42,597 nucleotides of DNA from Candidatus Woesearchaeota archaeon (GTDB lineage Archaea > Nanobdellota > Nanobdellia > Woesearchaeales > JAGVYF01). Positions 6,975-18,713 of the stretch are shown piece after piece. A program made the position numbers and the translations under genes. Numbering within the stretch: the stretch's first letter is position 1; each line of letters begins with the position of its first letter. A model generated the notes under the pieces. It was not told where the DNA came from, did not search any database, and saw nothing but the letters and a program-made list of their open reading frames with translations. The stretch is from positions 1 to 42,597 of the forward strand of contig JACQSS010000071.1 in assembly GCA_016211195.1 (NCBI GenBank), read 5' to 3'.

Positions 6975-8417
6975 TCAGCGGAGCAGCTGCATGGCAACCT
7001 GTTCAAGGCAATGCAGCAAGGCAATCATTCCCTCAGTATCTTGCTTGCAATACATCAGCAGAGCCTTCCTCAGAGAGGGGTTTTGTTTTCTCTCTTTGTA
7101 CGTCATCTGCAAGAACTCCCGTGCTGCCTGATCGCCTTTGCTGACTTCCAAATGATTATAGCTCTTCCCCGTCAGAGCAGGAAGCACTGCCTTGATAGAG
7201 CAGCTCCCGTGCTGTGCGGGATGGTAATACCAGAAATTCCTGAAAGGGATGAGGAGGTCATCGAGCCGTTCAATAACTGATGCAAGCCATTTTTCCTCAG
7301 GATAGGTGTCAAGCAAGTCACGCAGGATGCCTTGTTCAAACATTTTGTTGTAAGCCAACACTGTGCCCGTGCTTCTGATAGCACGGAGTGTGTCAACCAC
7401 AGCACGTCGGGGGTCTTCGGGACTATCTGCAAGGAATGCAACATGGTCCGGTGTGCTGCCTGGTTGCTGGATGATGTGCAATGAGAGCTGAAACGGAACC
7501 TGTTGGTATGGATGTGTGCCATCAAAGAGCGGCACTGCGGGATTCACTGCTTCAAAGTCAAGCAGATACAGAGGATAGTGCAACCCCGCAAGGAACTCCT
7601 TTATATGGGCGGGTTCTGTGTGCGCCTGGCCAGTTTGGATGCAATCACGCTGGATACGCTGTTTCTGATTTAATAGATGGTCCGGCAAGTCGGTAATGAG
7701 AGTAGTATTCTGGTTAAGAAATGCATACGCCCGTTTGCCGAACTGGTATAATTCAGTAACATTATGGTCCGGCAGGCCTGTCATACACACAGGACAATCT
7801 TTTGGGTCAATGCATTCGGTGCCGAGCTGGGGATGAGGCATGGGACCTTGGATGATGGCCATCAGATCATTGAGATTATTTTCGACAGATGGCAACAAGG
7901 ATGTCACTTGTTCAGTGACATCTTCGCACGAGAATAATTGCTGCGGATCAATATCTCCGTGTCGCACATACTCACTGTTGACATGCATGAGGTGGCATCG
8001 CCTGATGCGGATACCTGCACCCTCAAGGCAGTAACGCTGGAATGCAACATCATGCAGATGTTCTTCTGTGACCTGCGTTGAGCTTTTCACTTCTATCAGA
8101 TCCCAGTCCCCATCCACCGGTACCAGGATATCAACACGACAGTATGCATCTCCATGGATGAAGCTGGCTTCGAAGATAGTCTTGCGCTGTACAACCAATT
8201 CCTTCGTTCTAGTGAGCGTATGATTAAAACCCTTATCCCACTCTACTTCTATGCCAAGAGGATACAGCTTCTTGGCAAATGCACCCACTTCATGTCCCTG
8301 ATCGAACAATGCCTGCGTGGCGTCATCAACTGGTGGAATCATATCTGGCGCATTATACACGCACCAGAGCTGCCGGGGACAGTGCAAACCGATGAGGTAC
8401 TTTGATTTTGAGAGCAT
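6975..8417 (-). CDS. DUF2779-type protein: Cas4-like PD-(D/E)XK nuclease fused to a DEDD/RNase H-like exonuclease domain
   Basis: MLSKSKYLIGLHCPRQLW N-terminus; EASFIHGDAYCRVDILVPVDGDWDLIEVKSST (nuclease core); CIDPKDCPVC; YLLDFEAVNP and YCKQDTEGM. Start placed at 8417 because the longer ORF start (8468) lies inside the mobile element at 8461-8626. Confidence 0.82.
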   Translation of the reverse strand: MLSKSKYLIGLHCPRQLWCVYNAPDMIPPVDDATQALFDQGHEVGAFAKKLYPLGIEVEWDKGFNHTLTRTKELVVQRKTIFEASFIHGDAYCRVDILVPVDGDWDLIEVKSSTQVTEEHLHDVAFQRYCLEGAGIRIRRCHLMHVNSEYVRHGDIDPQQLFSCEDVTEQVTSLLPSVENNLNDLMAIIQGPMPHPQLGTECIDPKDCPVCMTGLPDHNVTELYQFGKRAYAFLNQNTTLITDLPDHLLNQKQRIQRDCIQTGQAHTEPAHIKEFLAGLHYPLYLLDFEAVNPAVPLFDGTHPYQQVPFQLSLHIIQQPGSTPDHVAFLADSPEDPRRAVVDTLRAIRSTGTVLAYNKMFEQGILRDLLDTYPEEKWLASVIERLDDLLIPFRNFWYYHPAQHGSCSIKAVLPALTGKSYNHLEVSKGDQAAREFLQMTYKERKQNPSLRKALLMYCKQDTEGMIALLHCLEQVAMQLLR

Positions 8418-8451
8418 CAGAAAGGGAAAGACGACAACCAATATAAAACAT

Positions 8452-8460
8452 ACGTGAAGC
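8452..8460. repeat. Left 9-bp target-site duplication ACGTGAAGC
   Basis: Identical to 8627-8635; flanks element A exactly. Confidence 0.85.
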
Positions 8461-8626
8461 GGCTTCATCCAAAAAATCCGCTTCGCTCTGGGTTGGCATC
8501 GGTTCGGCTCATCCTATAAACCACACAGAGTGGCACCTTCCCGTATGGAGCGACCCCTTCCGCTTGTCCATGGTACCCATTCTTTGACCTCACAAAAATG
8601 ATGCCAACCTATTTTTGGATGAAGCC
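8461..8626. mobile_element. MITE-like element, family 1 copy A (166 bp)
   Basis: Termini GGCTTCATCC...GGATGAAGCC; inner inverted blocks GGTTGGCATC (8491-8500) and GATGCCAACC (8600-8609); 9-bp TSD; homologous in inverted orientation to 16599-16810. Confidence 0.88.
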
Positions 8627-8635
8627 ACGTGAAGC
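8627..8635. repeat. Right 9-bp target-site duplication ACGTGAAGC
   Basis: Identical to 8452-8460. Confidence 0.85.
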
Positions 8636-8640
8636 ATCAC

Positions 8641-8650
8641 TTTTATAAGG
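8641..8650 (+). promoter_or_regulatory. Archaeal TATA box for manC
   Basis: ttttataagg centred about 28 nt upstream of the ATG at 8673. Confidence 0.6.
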
Positions 8651-8672
8651 AACTACTTTCTTCCGAGCCGTG

Positions 8673-9860
8673 ATGCTCAAGACAATCATTCTTGCCGGTG
8701 GATCAGGCAAGCGGCTCTGGCCACTCTCACGGGGGAACAGACCAAAACAATGCCTGTCACTCGTCTCAAGAAAAACGCTACTTGAAGATGCAGTTGAACG
8801 CATGGAATGGGTCACTGAACGGGAAAATATCACCATCGTCACAACCAAGGACCTTTATCCTCAATTACATGCACTTGCACCGGATATTACCTATATTATT
8901 GAACCCATGGGGCGGGGTACTGCAGCAAGCATCGGGTTAGCGCTCATTGCTGAGAAAGGAAATCCGACCGTCGTCATTGGAACAGCAGACCACGCAATAA
9001 CCAACCCGGAACAGTTTGCACAGAATGTCGAGCAGGCATCTGCGCTTGCTGAATCAGGTCACCTCGTCTTGTTCGGCATCCCCATCAACCGCCCGGAGAC
9101 GGGCTATGGTTATATCACTCGGGGGAAACAGCTTGCCACACGCATGATTGACGCATACGTTGTCGATGGCTTTAAAGAGAAACCAAATGTCCAGACCGCA
9201 GCAGCATATATGCAGAGTGGTTGCTATTTCTGGAACTCAGGTATGATGATTGCGAAGCGCAATGTGCTGCTTGACGGTTTCAGGCACCACATGCCTGCCT
9301 TGTGGGATGGGCTCCAGAATCTTGCGCAGAACCTGGCAACTGCAGAAGAGGTCTTTGCCGCATTGGAGACAGTCTCGATCGACGTTGGCGTCACAGAGAA
9401 GTCACATAATGTGGCAGTGGTCAGAGCAACATTTCTATGGGATGATGTCGGTGACTTCCTCGCATTTTCCAGACTTTATCCAAAAGACGAACAGGAAAAC
9501 GTGATTAGGGCAAAGTATCAGGGCAATGCCCGCGGGTCAATTATTGTTGGCAGTAGCCGCATCATCTATGCGCATCAGGTCAACAATCTCGTCATTGTTG
9601 ATACGGATGATACAGTGCTTGTCAGTGCCAAGGATAAGACACAGGATGTCGGAAAACTTGTGACCGCACTTGAGCAGCGGCCCGAGTTTGCACCCTATGC
9701 ACGCACAAAGGGGGATTATGCACCGGGAACATCATACTGCCATAATGGAAGCAATACTATTAATAACAAGGACTCCTCATTTGTCGCAACAGTCGGTGTC
9801 AGTGGACTGGATATTATTGTCAACTCTCAATCAGTCATTGTAAAAAATGGGCGTTGTTAA
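8673..9860 (+). CDS. manC: Mannose-1-phosphate guanylyltransferase
   Basis: LKTIILAGGSGKRLWPLSRGNRPKQCLSL; VVIGTADHAI; SGCYFWNSGM. GTG at 8670 or ATG at 8673 are both possible starts. Confidence 0.9.
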   Translation: MLKTIILAGGSGKRLWPLSRGNRPKQCLSLVSRKTLLEDAVERMEWVTERENITIVTTKDLYPQLHALAPDITYIIEPMGRGTAASIGLALIAEKGNPTVVIGTADHAITNPEQFAQNVEQASALAESGHLVLFGIPINRPETGYGYITRGKQLATRMIDAYVVDGFKEKPNVQTAAAYMQSGCYFWNSGMMIAKRNVLLDGFRHHMPALWDGLQNLAQNLATAEEVFAALETVSIDVGVTEKSHNVAVVRATFLWDDVGDFLAFSRLYPKDEQENVIRAKYQGNARGSIIVGSSRIIYAHQVNNLVIVDTDDTVLVSAKDKTQDVGKLVTALEQRPEFAPYARTKGDYAPGTSYCHNGSNTINNKDSSFVATVGVSGLDIIVNSQSVIVKNGRC

Positions 9861-11166
9861 AGCATATGACATCAGGGGAATTGTACCTCATGAGATAGAT
9901 CAATTTCTCACGCACAAGGTCGGGAAAGCCGTCGTGTCACTTTTACAGGCACGAAATGTCCTTGTTGCCCACGATATGAGGACGAGCAGTCCACAGATGG
10001 AGTATGCGCTCCGGTATGGAATCATTGGCCAGGGAGCTGACGCCCTCAAAGCAGGCCTCCGCTCAACACCAGAATTTTATCACCTGTTGGCGACCGGAGG
10101 CTATGATGCGGGCGTTATCGTCACAGCATCTCATAATCCCAAAGAATATAATGGTTTCAAGATCTGCAAAAAGAATGCGGTGGCGCTTAGCTATGAAACG
10201 GGTTTGGCGCAGCTCGAACAGATGCTCGCTGCGGATTCCTGGGCTACTACCGGAATTGGCAAGCTGCACACGGTGCAGGACATGCCGTATGCATCGTTCA
10301 TCGCAAAGCATATGTCTCTAACCTTGGGACACCGGCTCGTCTGTGATGCTGGCAACGGCATGGCCGGTCATACATTACCCACACTCCTCTCCCAATACCC
10401 CATGGTGGAAACGCAATGCCTCTTTTTCGACCTTGACGGCACGTTCCCGAACCATGAAGCAAATCCAATCAAGGAAGAAAATCTTACTGCACTGAAACAG
10501 GCAGTTCTCAATACCAAGGCAGAACTAGGACTTGCATTTGATGGCGACGCTGACCGTGTCGGTTTTGTGGACGAACTAGGGAAGGCAGTACCGGGTGACA
10601 TCATTCTGTGTCTTCTTGCAACACACATGCTCAAGGCAAATCCGGGTGCGGCAATTGTCTATGATACACGGAGCACGCGAGCCCTCCCAGAAGCCATTGC
10701 ACAAGCTGGTGGCACGCCTGTCATGTGGAAAGGCGGACACTCCCGCGTCAAGACCAAGATGCTTGAAGTCTCGGCACTGCTTGGCGGCGAAAAGTCTGGC
10801 CATTTCTTTTTCCGCGATTTCTTTTCTGCAGATTGCCCAGATATGGCATGGCTGCACGTCCTCAGAATAATGGAAGAGACCCGGCAACCATTATCTGCTT
10901 TAGTGGCACCGTTCCAAAAGTACTTTACGGGGGAAGAGATAAATTTCAGGGTACCCAGCGACCCGCAGGAAGTCCTGAAGATGGTCGAAAAACGATATAA
11001 AGGCAAAGCGACGTATCTTGATGGGCTTTCAATGGACATGGGGACATGGTGGTTTAATCTGCGCACATCCAACACAGAGCCGCTGCTGCGCCTGAATCTC
11101 GAGGCCATTGACAAGGATTTGTTTGAAGAGAAGAAACAGGAACTAACAGCGTTGCTGAACCAATAG
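9847..11166 (+). CDS. manB: Phosphomannomutase/phosphoglucomutase
   Basis: VKAYDIRGIVP; VIVTASHNPKEYNGFKI; AFDGDADRVGFVDE; GGEKSGHFFF. The start overlaps the manC 3' end by 14 nt. Confidence 0.93.
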   Translation: MGVVKAYDIRGIVPHEIDQFLTHKVGKAVVSLLQARNVLVAHDMRTSSPQMEYALRYGIIGQGADALKAGLRSTPEFYHLLATGGYDAGVIVTASHNPKEYNGFKICKKNAVALSYETGLAQLEQMLAADSWATTGIGKLHTVQDMPYASFIAKHMSLTLGHRLVCDAGNGMAGHTLPTLLSQYPMVETQCLFFDLDGTFPNHEANPIKEENLTALKQAVLNTKAELGLAFDGDADRVGFVDELGKAVPGDIILCLLATHMLKANPGAAIVYDTRSTRALPEAIAQAGGTPVMWKGGHSRVKTKMLEVSALLGGEKSGHFFFRDFFSADCPDMAWLHVLRIMEETRQPLSALVAPFQKYFTGEEINFRVPSDPQEVLKMVEKRYKGKATYLDGLSMDMGTWWFNLRTSNTEPLLRLNLEAIDKDLFEEKKQELTALLNQ

Positions 11167-11188
11167 ATTTTTATTCAAAGGGGGGCTG

Positions 11189-11611
11189 ATGTCTTTCATG
11201 AAGTTGTATCTTATCGTCTTTGCCTTGGTGTTACTCGGATGTGCGGTCGCACCACAAAAACCATTGACACCGGAGCAGCCAGAAACTCCATCGGCCGAAG
11301 AGCCGGTATTGCCGCCCCCACCACCAGTGGGGGAAATAGGACAACGTGAGCAGCCACAAGAGAAATCTGGTGAAACTCAACCAGAAAAGACACGACCCTC
11401 TGACGAACAACCATCAAGCCCAGCAAATGCCTGTTCTCGAGATGCCGACTGTAAATTACTCTACAGCAGCTGCAGTTGCATTGCTGTGCCAAAAACAGAC
11501 ACAAGGACATTTGACAACAGCGATCCACGCATCTGCGTCAGGAACAGTTGTGCGGGCTTACTAATTGCTGCCTGCAGTGAGGGAGCCTGCCAAACAAAAA
11601 TCCTTAAATAG
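11189..11611 (+). CDS. Putative lipoprotein with Pro-rich linker and Cys-rich C-terminus
   Basis: Signal/lipobox-like LYLIVFALVLLGCAV; linker EEPVLPPPPPVGE; CSRDADCKLLYSSCSC...CVRNSC...CSEGAC. Confidence 0.65.
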   Translation: MSFMKLYLIVFALVLLGCAVAPQKPLTPEQPETPSAEEPVLPPPPPVGEIGQREQPQEKSGETQPEKTRPSDEQPSSPANACSRDADCKLLYSSCSCIAVPKTDTRTFDNSDPRICVRNSCAGLLIAACSEGACQTKILK

Positions 11612-11642
11612 CACGAGACCTCTGAAAAGACTGGTGATAGAT

Positions 11643-11885
11643 ATGCCAAAGCAGACTGTAAAAGTGTATTCGACGCCGACATGCGTCTACTGTCAGAAAG
11701 CAAAGGCCTTCCTCAAAGAAAACAAGATTGATTATGAGGAGATTAATGTTGCCGAAGACGAGGAAGCGCGCGAGGCAATGATTGAGAAAACAGGACAGAT
11801 GGGTGTTCCAGTCATTGAAATTGGTGACACCATTATTGTTGGCTTTGACAAGGAAGCCATGAAAAAAGCCCTAAACCTTAAGTAA
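11643..11885 (+). CDS. Glutaredoxin-family protein
   Basis: MPKQTVKVYSTPTCVYCQKAKAFLKENKIDYEEINV...GQMGVPVIEIGD (CVYC, cis-Pro). Start trimmed from 11565 to 11643. Confidence 0.9.
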   Translation: MPKQTVKVYSTPTCVYCQKAKAFLKENKIDYEEINVAEDEEAREAMIEKTGQMGVPVIEIGDTIIVGFDKEAMKKALNLK

Positions 11886-11906
11886 TGCTTCTTTTTTTCT
11901 TCTATC

Positions 11907-12578
11907 ATGAAGGTATTAGTTGGCTGTCCTACGTATGATGGGAAATTGTATTGTCTTGAAAAATATGCAGACGGACTCAAAGCGCTGACTTACCCGGAGA
12001 AGGATATTCTCCTTGTGGACAATTCATCGTCCCCTTTTTTTGCAGAGCACTTGAAACAACGAGGCATTCCTGTCATCCATTATGGTTATGACCTTGCAAC
12101 ACCTCGTGACCGAATCATTCACTGCCGCAATCTCCTCCGCAAGAAAGTCATCGCTGGGTATGACTATTTTTTGAGCCTTGAAGCAGATGTCGTACCCCCT
12201 CCATCTGTTATTGAACACCTGCTGGCGCACAAGAAGGACATCGTGTCTGCAGTTGTTTGGTATTACGCAGATCATGATGGCAAGCGGGTCCCGGCGCCAT
12301 TGCTCTGGGACATTGACCCGCAAGGTGATGAGAATTACATGGTGTACATTGCAAAGGACGAGCTTGCAAAACCCCAACTCAAAGAAATAAAAGCATGCAG
12401 CTTAAGCTGTTGCCTGATGACGCGTGAGGTTCTTGAGAAAGTCGTCTTCCGCTATAAGGGAGAGAGCTATGATGATGTCATGTTCTGTCTGGATGCGCGT
12501 CAGAAAGGCTACCGGGTGTACGTTGATACACGTGTAGAATGCACCCACTATTATAAAAAGAGAAAAGAAAAAAACTAA
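11907..12578 (+). CDS. GT-A fold glycosyltransferase-like protein
   Basis: MKVLVGCPTYDGKLYCLEKYADGLKALTYPEKDILLVDNSS...YDYFLSLEADVVPPPSVI. Confidence 0.75.
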   Translation: MKVLVGCPTYDGKLYCLEKYADGLKALTYPEKDILLVDNSSSPFFAEHLKQRGIPVIHYGYDLATPRDRIIHCRNLLRKKVIAGYDYFLSLEADVVPPPSVIEHLLAHKKDIVSAVVWYYADHDGKRVPAPLLWDIDPQGDENYMVYIAKDELAKPQLKEIKACSLSCCLMTREVLEKVVFRYKGESYDDVMFCLDARQKGYRVYVDTRVECTHYYKKRKEKN

Positions 12579-13243
12579 AACATCTTCTTTAATTTCTTGA
12601 TTTGGGCAACTGCCTCATCTTTCAGAGCAAGACCGAAACCAAGCCCGAGTGCCAAGGCTGTGGCAAACACGATGCCTGCGAGCAGGATGAGGAACGTGTT
12701 CTCTGCTAATGACACAGCAACGCTCATCTGCGTCAATGCCATCAGACCTGCAAACACCAAAATACCGCCCCATGCAATGTCCGCAATCACATTCGCGCCT
12801 TTTGCCTTTGTTGCGACAATTTCCTTTGCTGCATACTCTGCACCCAGCCACCCAAGCAATGCCAGAATGACAGCAGTAATGAGGTTGGGAATCCATAGCG
12901 CCAGTCCCCGCAAGAGATCAGACAACCCACTCAGTTGCACCATGTCCGCTGCTGAAGGCAGGAACAGGATGAACACGTACCATTTGACAAGGGTCCCCAC
13001 AAAGGACGCAAGGTCAAACTTTCCTACAACTGGTTTAAGATTCGTTTTCTCAAACAGCCATTTATCAAGCTGACCTTTCACCACTAGCTTATGCACAGCA
13101 TATGCAACCAGCTTCGCGACCAGATAGCCGAAAAGCAGGATGACAATACCAGCCAGAAGACCAGGCAGCATATTGGTTGTGCTTTGCCAGATTGTGGTCA
13201 AAGGATCAACCAAAGCCTGACGTGTTTCTATTAATATACTCAT
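12575..13243 (-). CDS. Conserved TM-helix / MscS-related membrane protein
   Basis: ILLFGYLVAKLVAYAVHKLV and multiple hydrophobic helices, as in MscS N-terminal TM-helix repeat proteins. Confidence 0.7.
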   Translation of the reverse strand: MSILIETRQALVDPLTTIWQSTTNMLPGLLAGIVILLFGYLVAKLVAYAVHKLVVKGQLDKWLFEKTNLKPVVGKFDLASFVGTLVKWYVFILFLPSAADMVQLSGLSDLLRGLALWIPNLITAVILALLGWLGAEYAAKEIVATKAKGANVIADIAWGGILVFAGLMALTQMSVAVSLAENTFLILLAGIVFATALALGLGFGLALKDEAVAQIKKLKKMF

Positions 13244-13344
13244 CTCATACCACCTCTTTTTTTACAAAAAAACATTAATGTCTAGAGTATATATCCCATA
13301 GTATATAAACATTTATTACCATTCGAAAATGGTAATTGCATGCT

Positions 13345-13478
13345 CTTGAAAAGTCCCTTCCCACGGGTCATCGATCGGCATGGAGCTATCTCTAGTAATG
13401 ACCAAAACTCCATTGCAATTTCCTTTTTGCTTGCAAGAAAAAAAGTTGATGCTCACAGGAGTGATGAACTTTTCAGCG
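13345..13478. repeat. Palindromic repeat / MITE-like element, family 2 copy C (diverged)
   Basis: CTTGAAAAGTCCC...ACTTTTCAGCG ends; internal TCATCGATCGGCATGGAGC and tttttgcttgcaag segments shared with copies D and E. Confidence 0.6.
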
Positions 13479-13480
13479 AT

Positions 13481-15052
13481 TTACCCTGAAGAGACATAAT
13501 TATCAATAGAGTAGCGTGGCAGTTTCCATTGATGCTGCAGAATGGGCTCCTGGCCCAGCAGTCGTTTCAAGGCCAAGACATATCGTTCCGGGTACACAAT
13601 ATCCTGAAATGTCGGCGGTGCTGCAATGACATGGGACAGATGCTGTGCCCCTATTTCAGTTACCACATAATCAACAAAGATGTAACCAAGCGAATAATGA
13701 TGCGATTTTGACATGAGCAGGGACCAATCATCGCCACTCGCGAGATACTGGGCAATATCGGCCATGCAGAAAAGGCGATGCTGATGAATACGACCGAACA
13801 CGTTCTGCCGCTGCCGCAGTGCAGTGATTGCTAGGTATTCAGCGAGGCCTTCGTGAAACAGGCTTTGTTCGAGCGCCTGTTTCGAGAAGTGGCGGTCAGC
13901 AAGTTTAGGGTTAATCATATCAACATAGTGATGACCGAGTTCATGGAAGAGCACGTAGCGCTCTTCAGAGATGAGTCCAGAGCCGCGATAGTACGGCAGA
14001 AATGTAACCTGCTTTTGCTCAGGTGAATACATGCCTCTGTACCGGTCACAGAGACCCATCAACCCGCTGCCAAGATACGTGTACACCAGTGTTGCGTGGC
14101 GCAAGCCGGGTAGAGCGAGCACAGGCAGGTTTGCCTCAACAGCAGCCTGGGCTTCACTGGACAGTGCATAATGCAGGGCGCGATGACCCATTTTGATAAC
14201 AGGAAGATGACCATTTCCAAGATTATTCGCACGGTACAAGGTCTGCTGCAAACCAGTCACTTCCCGGGAAACAGCGGGTCCGAGCTGGCGACGTGCTGTG
14301 ACTAGATCACGATACCCAAACGTCGTTTCGAAAAAAAGAGCAGAGGACAGCAAGGTCGCAAGTAACCCCTTGACTGTCCCGGACAAGCATGAGATGGATT
14401 TCCGCATGAGTAATGACGAAGCACTGTCTTCAATAAGATGCCCATTCTGTCGGAGTCGCTCCCTAATAATAGCCCATTTGACACCGGACATCTGTTGCAT
14501 AGAAGCCAGTAATTCCTGTCCATCATGACATGAGGACAAGCGCACCTTTTCATCATGGTCCAGCCGGTCGCTTATATATGATCCATGAGACGGGAACTGG
14601 GTCTCGAGAAGTTGGTCCAATGGCACTGCTGCAATCGCATGACGCTCTCGTTCGTACTGAGCAAGCGCACGGCTGTTGATCACATAACGATAGGCATGGA
14701 CCCCCACCCGATTTGCCAAAAGCCCAAGGGGAACACCCATGCCAAAGCCGCAGAAGAGGAGATACTCTGCAGCTGCCACCGCAGGCAGCCAGAATGGCAA
14801 GTGGGCAAAGAACTTCTTTTCTTTTTCAACAGCGAGCATGAACCCATAACCAGCCTCGGGAGCTGGCTCCCGGAGAGGAGATGCATTATCACAGTCCTCC
14901 GGCGAGTAGCCCATTGTTTTCAGGTACGCGACAAAATCATCACGGGCAGCGACACGGCCGATTGCACGTTTCAGATATGCTCGTTCAGACTCATCCTTTG
15001 TCGGCACAATTCCAAGAGAATCATAGTAGAATAATTTCTCCAGTTGAGACAT
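13481..15052 (-). CDS. Putative membrane-associated zinc metallopeptidase
   Basis: HExxH in YVLFHELGHHYVDMI, downstream LFHEGLAEYLAITAL as candidate third ligand; hydrophobic segment LPFWLPAVAAAEYLLFCGFGMGVPLG. Confidence 0.65.
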   Translation of the reverse strand: MSQLEKLFYYDSLGIVPTKDESERAYLKRAIGRVAARDDFVAYLKTMGYSPEDCDNASPLREPAPEAGYGFMLAVEKEKKFFAHLPFWLPAVAAAEYLLFCGFGMGVPLGLLANRVGVHAYRYVINSRALAQYERERHAIAAVPLDQLLETQFPSHGSYISDRLDHDEKVRLSSCHDGQELLASMQQMSGVKWAIIRERLRQNGHLIEDSASSLLMRKSISCLSGTVKGLLATLLSSALFFETTFGYRDLVTARRQLGPAVSREVTGLQQTLYRANNLGNGHLPVIKMGHRALHYALSSEAQAAVEANLPVLALPGLRHATLVYTYLGSGLMGLCDRYRGMYSPEQKQVTFLPYYRGSGLISEERYVLFHELGHHYVDMINPKLADRHFSKQALEQSLFHEGLAEYLAITALRQRQNVFGRIHQHRLFCMADIAQYLASGDDWSLLMSKSHHYSLGYIFVDYVVTEIGAQHLSHVIAAPPTFQDIVYPERYVLALKRLLGQEPILQHQWKLPRYSIDNYVSSG

Positions 15053-15102
15053 CAGAGCATGGACTCAAGGGCAGCATTTAAATGAGACCCATATAGTATA
15101 TA

Positions 15103-15789
15103 TCACTCGTGGGTAACGTGCCGCGATGAACCACCCGTCTTGCATGCCCCCACAAGAACGCATGCCTCACAAAGAGGCTTTTTCCTGCATGACTGCTTGG
15201 CGTGCTCAACGAGTAATGCATGGTATTCGTTGAATAGTGCTGCATCTGCCGGGAGATTGTGATGAAAGAACTGTTGCCACTCATCGTATGAAGCGGATTC
15301 ATGCAGATAGCCCAATCGCGAAAAGATACGGCGGGTATAGGCATCAATGATAAAAGTAGGTTTATCGACCGCATAGAGCAGAATAGAATCTGCTGTCTCG
15401 GGACCAACCCCGTTCAATGCGAGCAGCATCTGGCGCAAGGTAGCGACATCATACAACAGGAGGTCTGTCTTAAGAAAGAAGCGTGCCATGGTTTTCAGCC
15501 GTGCTGCTTTCTGGTTGAAATACCCCGCAGGCCTGATGAGTTCGGGCAGGTTCTTCGCAGCCAATATTCTTCGTGGTCGAAGCATTTGCTTTCTGTTGAG
15601 TGCAATCAGCGCTTTCTCAACATTTGTCCATGCCGTATTCTGAGTCAGAATCGCACCAACAGCGATTTCAAACTGGTGCTCTGGTGAGCGACGCGCACCA
15701 TATTTTGGCGCCTCTTCACCCGCGGGCGTGACAGGCCACCAGCCTTGAGAGCCATAGGCGGATAGGAGACGATGATAAATGGAGAGCAT
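15103..15789 (-). CDS. Endonuclease III-like HhH-GPD DNA glycosylase
   Basis: GAILTQNTAWTNVEKAL; LNGVGPETADSILLYA; FIIDAYTRRIFSRLG; C-terminal Cys cluster CRKKPLCEACVLVGAC. Confidence 0.88.
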   Translation of the reverse strand: MLSIYHRLLSAYGSQGWWPVTPAGEEAPKYGARRSPEHQFEIAVGAILTQNTAWTNVEKALIALNRKQMLRPRRILAAKNLPELIRPAGYFNQKAARLKTMARFFLKTDLLLYDVATLRQMLLALNGVGPETADSILLYAVDKPTFIIDAYTRRIFSRLGYLHESASYDEWQQFFHHNLPADAALFNEYHALLVEHAKQSCRKKPLCEACVLVGACKTGGSSRHVTHE

Positions 15790-15827
15790 ACTCTTGGGAA
15801 GAGAACGCTGGTATAAATTACTGCGGC

Positions 15828-16553
15828 TTATTTCGCAATCTTCACAAGAGTAACTGGCTCATCACCGGGCGTGTAATAGACATTATCCCCTACAACGAGT
15901 TTTAGGGAATTTGTCAAATAGCGGAACTCGTCACCTGTTCTGCTGTTGCGCAGTGTGCCCCGCAAACCATCACGCGAAGAAATGACTGTCTTAACACGTG
16001 CCAGTTCTGTGCCTGCCGGCTGTGATGTATCTTCTGTTGCAGTCTCATTCTTCTGAAGGCGTGGATCGGCTTCCTTGGCAATAATCTTCGCTGCATCGTT
16101 GCTCAAAGTAAATGTTACTATGTCGCCGCGAATGATCTCAACAGAAGTCGTGAATGGATAATGTTTATACGTTTCCATGTCAGTCAGTTCGCCTGTGTAA
16201 ACGCCATTTTTTATAGGATTAAGAGTTGTGATGCGACCTTTGTAGACACGTGGGGGAGCTTCTTTGACTACTTGTTCCACACGTTGTACCGGCTCTGCCA
16301 CTTTTTCTTCAACAGGTTGCTTTTCTTCAACGGGAATTCCCTCTACGGGTTTTTCAGCAGGCTTCTCCTCTGGCGCGTCAATCACTTTCTCAGTCGGCAT
16401 CTCCAGTTTCTCCACAATCTTCTCAACCTGTTGCTCTTCAACAGGCTCCTGCACAACAACTTCCTCAATTTGAGTTTCCTCAGTGACGTCTTCAGCAGTG
16501 CAACCGACAAGGGCAACAAGCACAACAATGAATGAGAGAATGGATTTGTTCAT
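15828..16553 (-). CDS. Putative lipoprotein, acidic linker plus beta-rich C-terminal domain
   Basis: MNKSILSFIVVLVALVGCTAEDV lipobox-like start; long E/V/P-rich low-complexity linker. Confidence 0.65.
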   Translation of the reverse strand: MNKSILSFIVVLVALVGCTAEDVTEETQIEEVVVQEPVEEQQVEKIVEKLEMPTEKVIDAPEEKPAEKPVEGIPVEEKQPVEEKVAEPVQRVEQVVKEAPPRVYKGRITTLNPIKNGVYTGELTDMETYKHYPFTTSVEIIRGDIVTFTLSNDAAKIIAKEADPRLQKNETATEDTSQPAGTELARVKTVISSRDGLRGTLRNSRTGDEFRYLTNSLKLVVGDNVYYTPGDEPVTLVKIAK

Positions 16554-16574
16554 GCCCTTTTTTTAGGTTTTCAA

Positions 16575-16584
16575 CTATATAAAG
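16575..16584 (-). promoter_or_regulatory. TATA box for the lipoprotein gene
   Basis: ctatataaag (minus CTTTATATAG), about 26 nt from the start at 16553 and 5 nt from the TSD of element B. Confidence 0.55.
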
Positions 16585-16589
16585 CCATC

Positions 16590-16598
16590 TTTTTACAC
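16590..16598. repeat. Left 9-bp target-site duplication TTTTTACAC
   Basis: Identical to 16811-16819. Confidence 0.85.
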
Positions 16599-16810
16599 GG
16601 CTCCATCCTGAAGTAGGTTGGCATCTTTTTTGTGATGCTCTAAAAAGGAGGGAAACAAAGCGGAAGGGGATAGCTGTTAGCGAGCGCAGCGAAGCTAACC
16701 ACCGAAGACGCAGCCTGACTGTGCCTACGGGAGGGACCCGCTTCACGCAAACACAACAACGAGCCGAACCGATACCAACCCGAAGCGGAGCGGAGTTTTT
16801 GGATGGAGCC
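16599..16810. mobile_element. MITE-like element, family 1 copy B (212 bp), inverted relative to copy A
   Basis: Termini GGCTCCATCC...GGATGGAGCC; inner blocks GGTTGGCATC (16616-16625) and GATACCAACC (16771-16780); 9-bp TSD TTTTTACAC; homology to copy A over both arms. Confidence 0.88.
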
Positions 16811-16819
16811 TTTTTACAC
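16811..16819. repeat. Right 9-bp target-site duplication TTTTTACAC
   Basis: Identical to 16590-16598. Confidence 0.85.
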
Positions 16820-18449: not shown

Positions 18450-18509
18450 GACCCGTGTTAGTCTTGCAGATTCTTAAATGTTTAGCAACTGCTGGCGCAG
18501 GCTCATGAC

Positions 18510-18665
18510 CCATTGAAAAGTTCCTTCGCTGTCGCTTCGTGGCCATCGGTTCGCATGGAACTTCCCATAGTAAAGGCAAAAATTCTTCTTGCAATCCCCT
18601 TTTTGCTTGCTCGAGTAACGAGCCAATGTTCACAGAATTGATGGCCAACGTGACCTTTTCAATGG
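18510..18665. repeat. Palindromic repeat / MITE-like element, family 2 copy D
   Basis: Terminal inverted repeat CCATTGAAAAG (18510-18520) / CTTTTCAATGG (18655-18665); inner inverted TGGCCATC/GATGGCCA; homologous to 42491-42597 (reverse) and 13345-13478. Confidence 0.75.
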
Positions 18666-18713
18666 CGCCCAGGCCCAGATATGTTTTTATAGTACGGAAT
18701 CATAAGTGAATCG

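Follow-up and report, generated by a model that had tools for sequence, protein, structure and literature searches.

A MITE family in a Woesearchaeota genome, probably moved by an IS5-type transposase and built on a hairpin scaffold of its archaeal order

Here, we describe family A, a family of miniature inverted-repeat transposable elements (MITEs), starting from two copies in a 42,597-nt stretch of DNA of a Candidatus Woesearchaeota archaeon (the window, which is contig C60 of the 1.11-Mb host assembly of 76 contigs). Copy A1 (166 bp) lies at 8461-8626 on the minus strand and copy A2 (212 bp) at 16599-16810 on the plus strand, each element being written short arm first. We consider it highly likely that these MITEs are moved by an IS5-type transposase recognising their outer ends, and that their interior is a hairpin scaffold that is found across the host's order and has been re-ended.

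Family A and its partner insertion sequence

A first-pass annotation had described the two elements as lying in opposite orientations between perfect 9-bp direct repeats, and the sequence confirms this. The target site duplication (TSD) of A1 is ACGTGAAGC (8452-8460 and 8627-8635) and that of A2 is TTTTTACAC (16590-16598 and 16811-16819). The long arm of A1 begins with the outer terminal repeat GGCTTCATCCAAAAA (8461-8475, plus strand); its outer 10-mer (8461-8470) is followed after 20 nt by the inner block GGTTGGCATC (8491-8500, plus strand). In the short arm, the inner block (8600-8609, minus strand) is separated by 7 nt from the outer 10-mer (8617-8626) of the second outer terminal repeat (8612-8626, minus strand). 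In A2 the 7-nt spacing comes first and the 20-nt spacing second, with inner blocks at 16616-16625 (plus strand, GGTTGGCATC) in the short arm and at 16771-16780 (minus strand) in the long arm. The 10-mer named in the first pass is present at each end, yet the true outer block is longer and reads GGCTYCATCCAAAAA at both ends. Neither the 166-bp nor the 212-bp elements contain a transposase gene, and none was found in the window, as first noted. The ATG of an open reading frame (ORF) at 6975-8468 (reverse strand; DUF2779, Cas4-like match) falls within the terminal repeat of A1 (8461-8472), which places the A1 insertion at a gene start.

Family A occupies about 60 loci in the host genome, whose size is consistent with a small-genome archaeon. 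A search with the two arm patterns gave 26 short-arm and 23 long-arm matches versus none for the reversed control, which excludes chance as the source of the end structure. We analysed 20 copies of the 166-bp form and six of the 212-bp form, i.e., 25 distinct copies, as a 165-bp copy on C17 with A2-like ends is counted in both lists. Among the 23 copies with both flanks, the 9-bp TSD is perfect in ten and has one mismatch in six; at most one mismatch is thus seen in 16/23, as compared to 0.2% of mismatched left/right flank pairs, and no copy reaches this level in frames of 7, 8 or 10 bp. This excess over the control, sharp at 9 bp, identifies family A as a MITE family: its members are short, multicopy and bounded by terminal inverted repeats and 9-bp TSDs. 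With its insertion sequence (IS) type identified, it is a known kind of element. The 7- and 20-nt spacings, identical in the window copies, recur in 25/25 short arms and 24/25 long arms. The apparent contrast between conserved arms and variable centres applies between the two window copies, which belong to different subfamilies; copies of the 166-bp form are as well conserved in the centre (96%) as in the arms (96-97%). All copies but one (24/25) lie mostly outside ORF calls. Elements of family A and of the related family B described below are rare between convergent genes (3/40 placed elements, as against 186 convergent among 957 neighbouring gene pairs), on ORF calls that are crude.

A candidate partner is present in G001, a sister genome of the same genus as the host, of which contig sequence amounting to ~45% of the genome was compared. 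A search with NF033579 returned eight matches, among them an intact IS of 1183 bp (L273:1307-2489) with an unbroken frame of 317 aa. The product matches NF033579 (3.1e-25), below the curated cut-off of that model, and PF01609 (5.8e-17), above its cut-off. The ends of this IS are GGCTCCATCCAAAAATAG and GGCTCCATCCAGAAAATG, a perfect 9-bp TSD, TACAGCTTT, stands on both sides, and its first 18 nt equal the short arm of A1 except for one C/T difference; the long-arm repeat of A1 likewise matches the IS end except for one C/T, and the comparison with the A end gives 13/14 matching positions. Predicted DDE transposase, matching terminal repeats and 9-bp TSD together assign the partner element of family A to the IS5 family, as judged from sequence. 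The first-pass expectation of a non-autonomous family whose terminal repeats match those of a transposase-bearing element is thereby borne out for the outer block. The inner block, however, is absent from the ends of the L273 IS, and short elements in G001 combine the A-type outer block with a different inner block. It follows that the transposon end is represented by the outer block, whereas the inner block is something else. In the mechanism that we propose, an IS5-family DDE transposase would recognise GGCTYCATCCAAAAA, make 9-bp staggered cuts and move family A elements in trans.

Searches of the host genome for transposase families (PF01609, PF13610, PF12762, NF033579) gave no match. For PF01609 this can be explained by IS copies being cut by contig ends, as tblastn detected C-terminal stubs (19-29 residues) of an IS5-type transposase at the ends of host contigs C73, C43 and C40, each directly inside an end GGCTCTGTAGAAAGTC. 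The shortest host contig measures 2369 bp, and collapsed IS copies would hence have dropped out of the assembly. In genome G105, contig ends (L268-L292) carry 29 IS5-type transposase matches, mostly C-terminal stubs and of at least two sequence types; here, a heavy IS load has been lost in assembly.

Three intervals of G001 lack the element that the host carries, namely those for C31:21616 (family B), C17:23444 (family A) and C13:7977 (A2), and the interval for C13:11639 holds a different A-ended element. Orthologous loci retaining both 9-mers without the element were not seen in this comparison.

An order-wide hairpin scaffold inside the elements

The inner block is one side of helix 1 of a larger scaffold, and the scaffold was recognised through a second family. 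Self-comparison of the host genome exposed family B, a ~164-bp repeat with 27 full-length and many partial copies; it aligns with A1 and A2 over the full length, the arm asymmetry falling at the same position. Used as a DNA query, the B consensus matched 11 of 246 genomes of the host's order (the two weakest matches, L180 and L183, look like chance), often best in the interior and with differing outer ends. We aligned 16 elements from eight genomes without reference to structure. Across 25 proposed pairs, 95.3% of the cells pair and 19/25 pairs show double changes; none of 500 shuffles reached the observed value, and sliding the alignment by one column lowered pairing to 41-43%. As the structure was read from the aligned sequences themselves, the slid control is a favoured comparison, and more weight attaches to the double changes.

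A covariance model (R1) built from these 16 elements, none of them a member of family A, matched 84 places in the host genome, including many A copies (E 5e-6 to 4e-2). The two A elements of the window scored 2e-4 and 0.04; the matched regions are 8490-8612 (minus strand) in A1, where the two inner blocks form the opposite sides of helix 1, and 16613-16781 (plus strand) in A2, whose inner blocks likewise fall in helix 1. Over 382 genomes of the phylum, 28 were matched, all from the host's order and representing 22 genera. The part common to family A and the model comprises helix 1 (GGTTGGCATC and its complement), a G-C and a U-A pair, the GA/GA mismatch and the following pairs.

The same scaffold wears other IS5-like ends in other genomes. 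Duplications read by eye are perfect and 9 bp long around scaffold elements with ends GGCTCTGTCCCGAA in G178 (TGGGGGAGC and CCTTTTATC), GGCGCTGTAGAAAATC in G146 (CTATTTTCA), GGCTCTGTCCTAAAT in G080 (ATTTCTTCC), GGGTCTGTCCGGAAT in G132 (CCAGAATGC) and GGCTCTGTAGAAAATC in G043 (CCTGTGTAG), and a G236 element has the A end GGCTTCATCCAAAAA with an imperfect duplication. The full A pattern of outer and inner blocks, proposed for a profile search in the first pass and productive in the host, had no match with up to one mismatch in 381 other phylum genomes, because the inner block differs elsewhere. The A-end pattern gave nine matches in contigs of GTDB species, all attributable to chance and without a second arm, and neither A nor B end patterns matched viral contigs. 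A literature search found no paper on MITEs in Woesearchaeota.

The interior is a nested imperfect palindrome that combines the helix formed by the inner blocks, a short helix interrupted by a tandem G-A mismatch and an apical part, with about 13 additional nt in one arm only. Its lower part is conserved across one archaeal order, where both its sequence and the outer ends vary. We propose that the scaffold is maintained in the form of a DNA hairpin or cruciform that probably serves as a host-factor or transposition-enhancing site, and that different IS5-type elements may re-end it from time to time. It is tempting to go further and regard the order-wide scaffold (inner helix, tandem-GA mismatch, one-sided extra arm stretch and apical stem with one-sided bulge) as the real unit of selection, which would persist by re-ending and be recognised as a hairpin or cruciform by a host or transposon protein; we put this forward tentatively, as an idea that may well prove wrong.

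The composition of the helices bears on what kind of structure is conserved. In a larger alignment of 37 elements, which were fitted to the model and hence lean towards it, double changes occur in 23/25 pairs, and the 750 cells of helices 1-3 include 733 Watson-Crick pairs, 6 G-U and 3 A-C; in the unfitted alignment, the 336 cells include 322 Watson-Crick pairs, 6 G-U and 6 A-C. Such near-perfect symmetry without G-U is what hairpin-templated correction of a palindrome at replication would leave behind, and the arm symmetry might then be a by-product, the scaffold merely carrying the MITE ends. Correction of this kind should, however, erase the tandem GA mismatch, which is kept in 36/37 and 35/37 elements, as well as the extra stretch in one arm and the one-sided bulge, both of which persist across genera. 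We therefore rate correction as unlikely to be the explanation, if the most serious competitor, and favour selection on a DNA hairpin with moderate confidence.

The same conserved fold, with its compensatory changes and tandem GA mismatch, would also be expected if the MITE carried a transcribed structured RNA, such as a regulatory RNA or part of an mRNA, and the folding energy lies under that of shuffled sequences (z -3.9, -2.5, -5.3). RNA helices normally tolerate G-U, and selection on a transcribed strand should make G-U more frequent than A-C, yet G-U is nearly absent here and not above A-C in number, and Rfam gave no match in the window at gathering score. An RNA function thus seems improbable. 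The scarcity of G-U beside a conserved tandem-GA mismatch suggests a DNA-level inverted repeat, be it a hairpin, a cruciform or a set of symmetric protein sites.

The first-pass proposal of two transposase-binding sites per end, with outer and inner blocks bound by one transposase and the unequal spacing serving as a left/right end code, draws on the fixation of both blocks and both spacings in nearly all host copies. It is not supported by the G001 elements, the L273 IS having the same outer ends without the inner block and the short elements differing from family A in the inner block only, or by other genomes, in which a similar inner helix recurs although the outer ends are unrelated, and we consider it very unlikely. 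That the elements are fixed, non-mobile intergenic palindromes (terminators or units of the repetitive extragenic palindromic, REP, type) with flanking repeats by chance can virtually be dismissed, since their palindromic form and location mainly outside ORF calls are set against a sharp duplication (9 bp in A, 8 bp in B, none at neighbouring lengths), an IS with matching ends and a TSD of its own, and sister-genome intervals without the element.

Several points weigh against an IS5-driven MITE family with a re-ended scaffold. Intergenic DNA of G001 has diverged so far that an unduplicated 9-mer is no longer recognisable; precise empty sites are not demonstrable, and the comparison suggested in the first pass ends at the three element-free intervals. 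The L273 protein has no match in the host assembly, i.e., no A-type transposase is present in this assembly, and we therefore infer both a partner transposase in the host species and the movement of the host's A copies by it. The apical core of A is unlike that of B, and conservation at the level of the order concerns the lower scaffold only. Finally, palindrome correction could yield part of the arm symmetry.

Family B and neighbouring repeat families

Family B was missed in the first-pass inventory of the window, which contains a copy with the same scaffold as family A (18506-18669, minus strand; alignment and scaffold model), a copy truncated by the contig end (42482-42597, plus strand) and a decayed scaffold (13365-13472, minus strand), the latter two detected by self-comparison and scaffold model. 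The ends of family B are GGTCSCATTGAAAAGTTC, and its TSD measures 8 bp (perfect in 7/27 copies, one mismatch in 9/27, none at 9 bp). The end sequence and the TSD length of 8 bp had pointed to an IS6 or IS1595 origin, which was rejected, with PF13610 and PF12762 unmatched in what is an incomplete draft assembly. Most full-length copies (22/27) lie mostly outside ORF calls. At least 51 of the 152 host contig ends fall in A or B, which indicates that these repeats broke the assembly.

Families A and B are also found side by side. Of the 60 A loci, eight are no more than 60 bp away from a B end, where a fraction of about 0.006 would be expected, and in five cases (contigs C13, C17, C39, C52 and C53) the distance is 9. 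This distance equals the length of the A duplication, which abuts the B terminus, and insertion of A beside B termini possibly reflects a target preference.

Further repeats resemble these families. A ~219-bp family with ends GTAGGTATTTAGTC (C31:12193-12411, C24:1554-1773, C64:11247-11466 and several contig ends) shows 8-bp duplications, GTCTGCTC and GGAAGCAA, read by eye, and some of its copies have an extra ~51-bp double hairpin in the core that others lack. Small families whose interiors are related but whose ends differ occur at C1:17203-17412, C56:13781-13986, C17:33930-34140, C76:45630-45802, C3:11181 and C10:7065, with 9-bp duplications seen by eye at the C76 (GTGAATTAA) and C1 (CACTGAGCA) copies. 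In G001, the long arm of a B-like element (L190:1323-1896) is interrupted by tandem short hairpins, and the element adjoins another MITE with ends GGCTCTGTAGAAAGTC and the duplication GTTTCGATG.

Relation to known elements and significance

TSD length differs among groups of the IS5 family, with 9 bp in IS903-like and 8 bp in ISH1-like elements. Family A and B elements resemble IS5-family ISs in the partner transposase of family A (NF033579/PF01609), in ends starting with GG and in TSD length (9 bp for A, 8 bp for B), but they lack a transposase gene and their interior is a conserved scaffold rather than an IS gene remnant. Another parallel is provided by enterobacterial repetitive intergenic consensus (ERIC) sequences, imperfect palindromes of ~100-200 bp that are intergenic and present in several genera. 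The scaffold shares with ERIC and other small palindromic repeats this form, size range, intergenic position and spread over several genera; it differs in the domain of life, in ends and TSD length, and in that one scaffold wears several transposon ends. Small mobile repeats have been reviewed (PMC2229807). Prokaryotic MITEs are described as mutated transposon derivatives of <500 bp with terminal inverted repeats, TSDs, multiple copies, intergenic location and predicted stem-loops (PMC10969869). Families A and B agree with this description in size, terminal repeats, TSDs, copy number, intergenic site and folding, but their interior is common to several genera under different ends, and the partner IS of family A was found only in the sister genome.

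MITEs are usually viewed as short-lived deletion derivatives of one IS in one species. What is new about the MITEs described here is the order-wide, probably re-ended scaffold, a non-coding interior that appears to outlive its ends, being present under several outer repeats in 22 genera, all of one archaeal order. On a practical level, the A and B repeats account for much of the fragmentation of the draft genome, and with the L273 IS an intact transposase and its pair of ends are available for experiment. The scaffold makes two questions testable, namely whether a MITE may persist as a parasite of many transposases and whether the hairpin that it forms has a function as a DNA structure.

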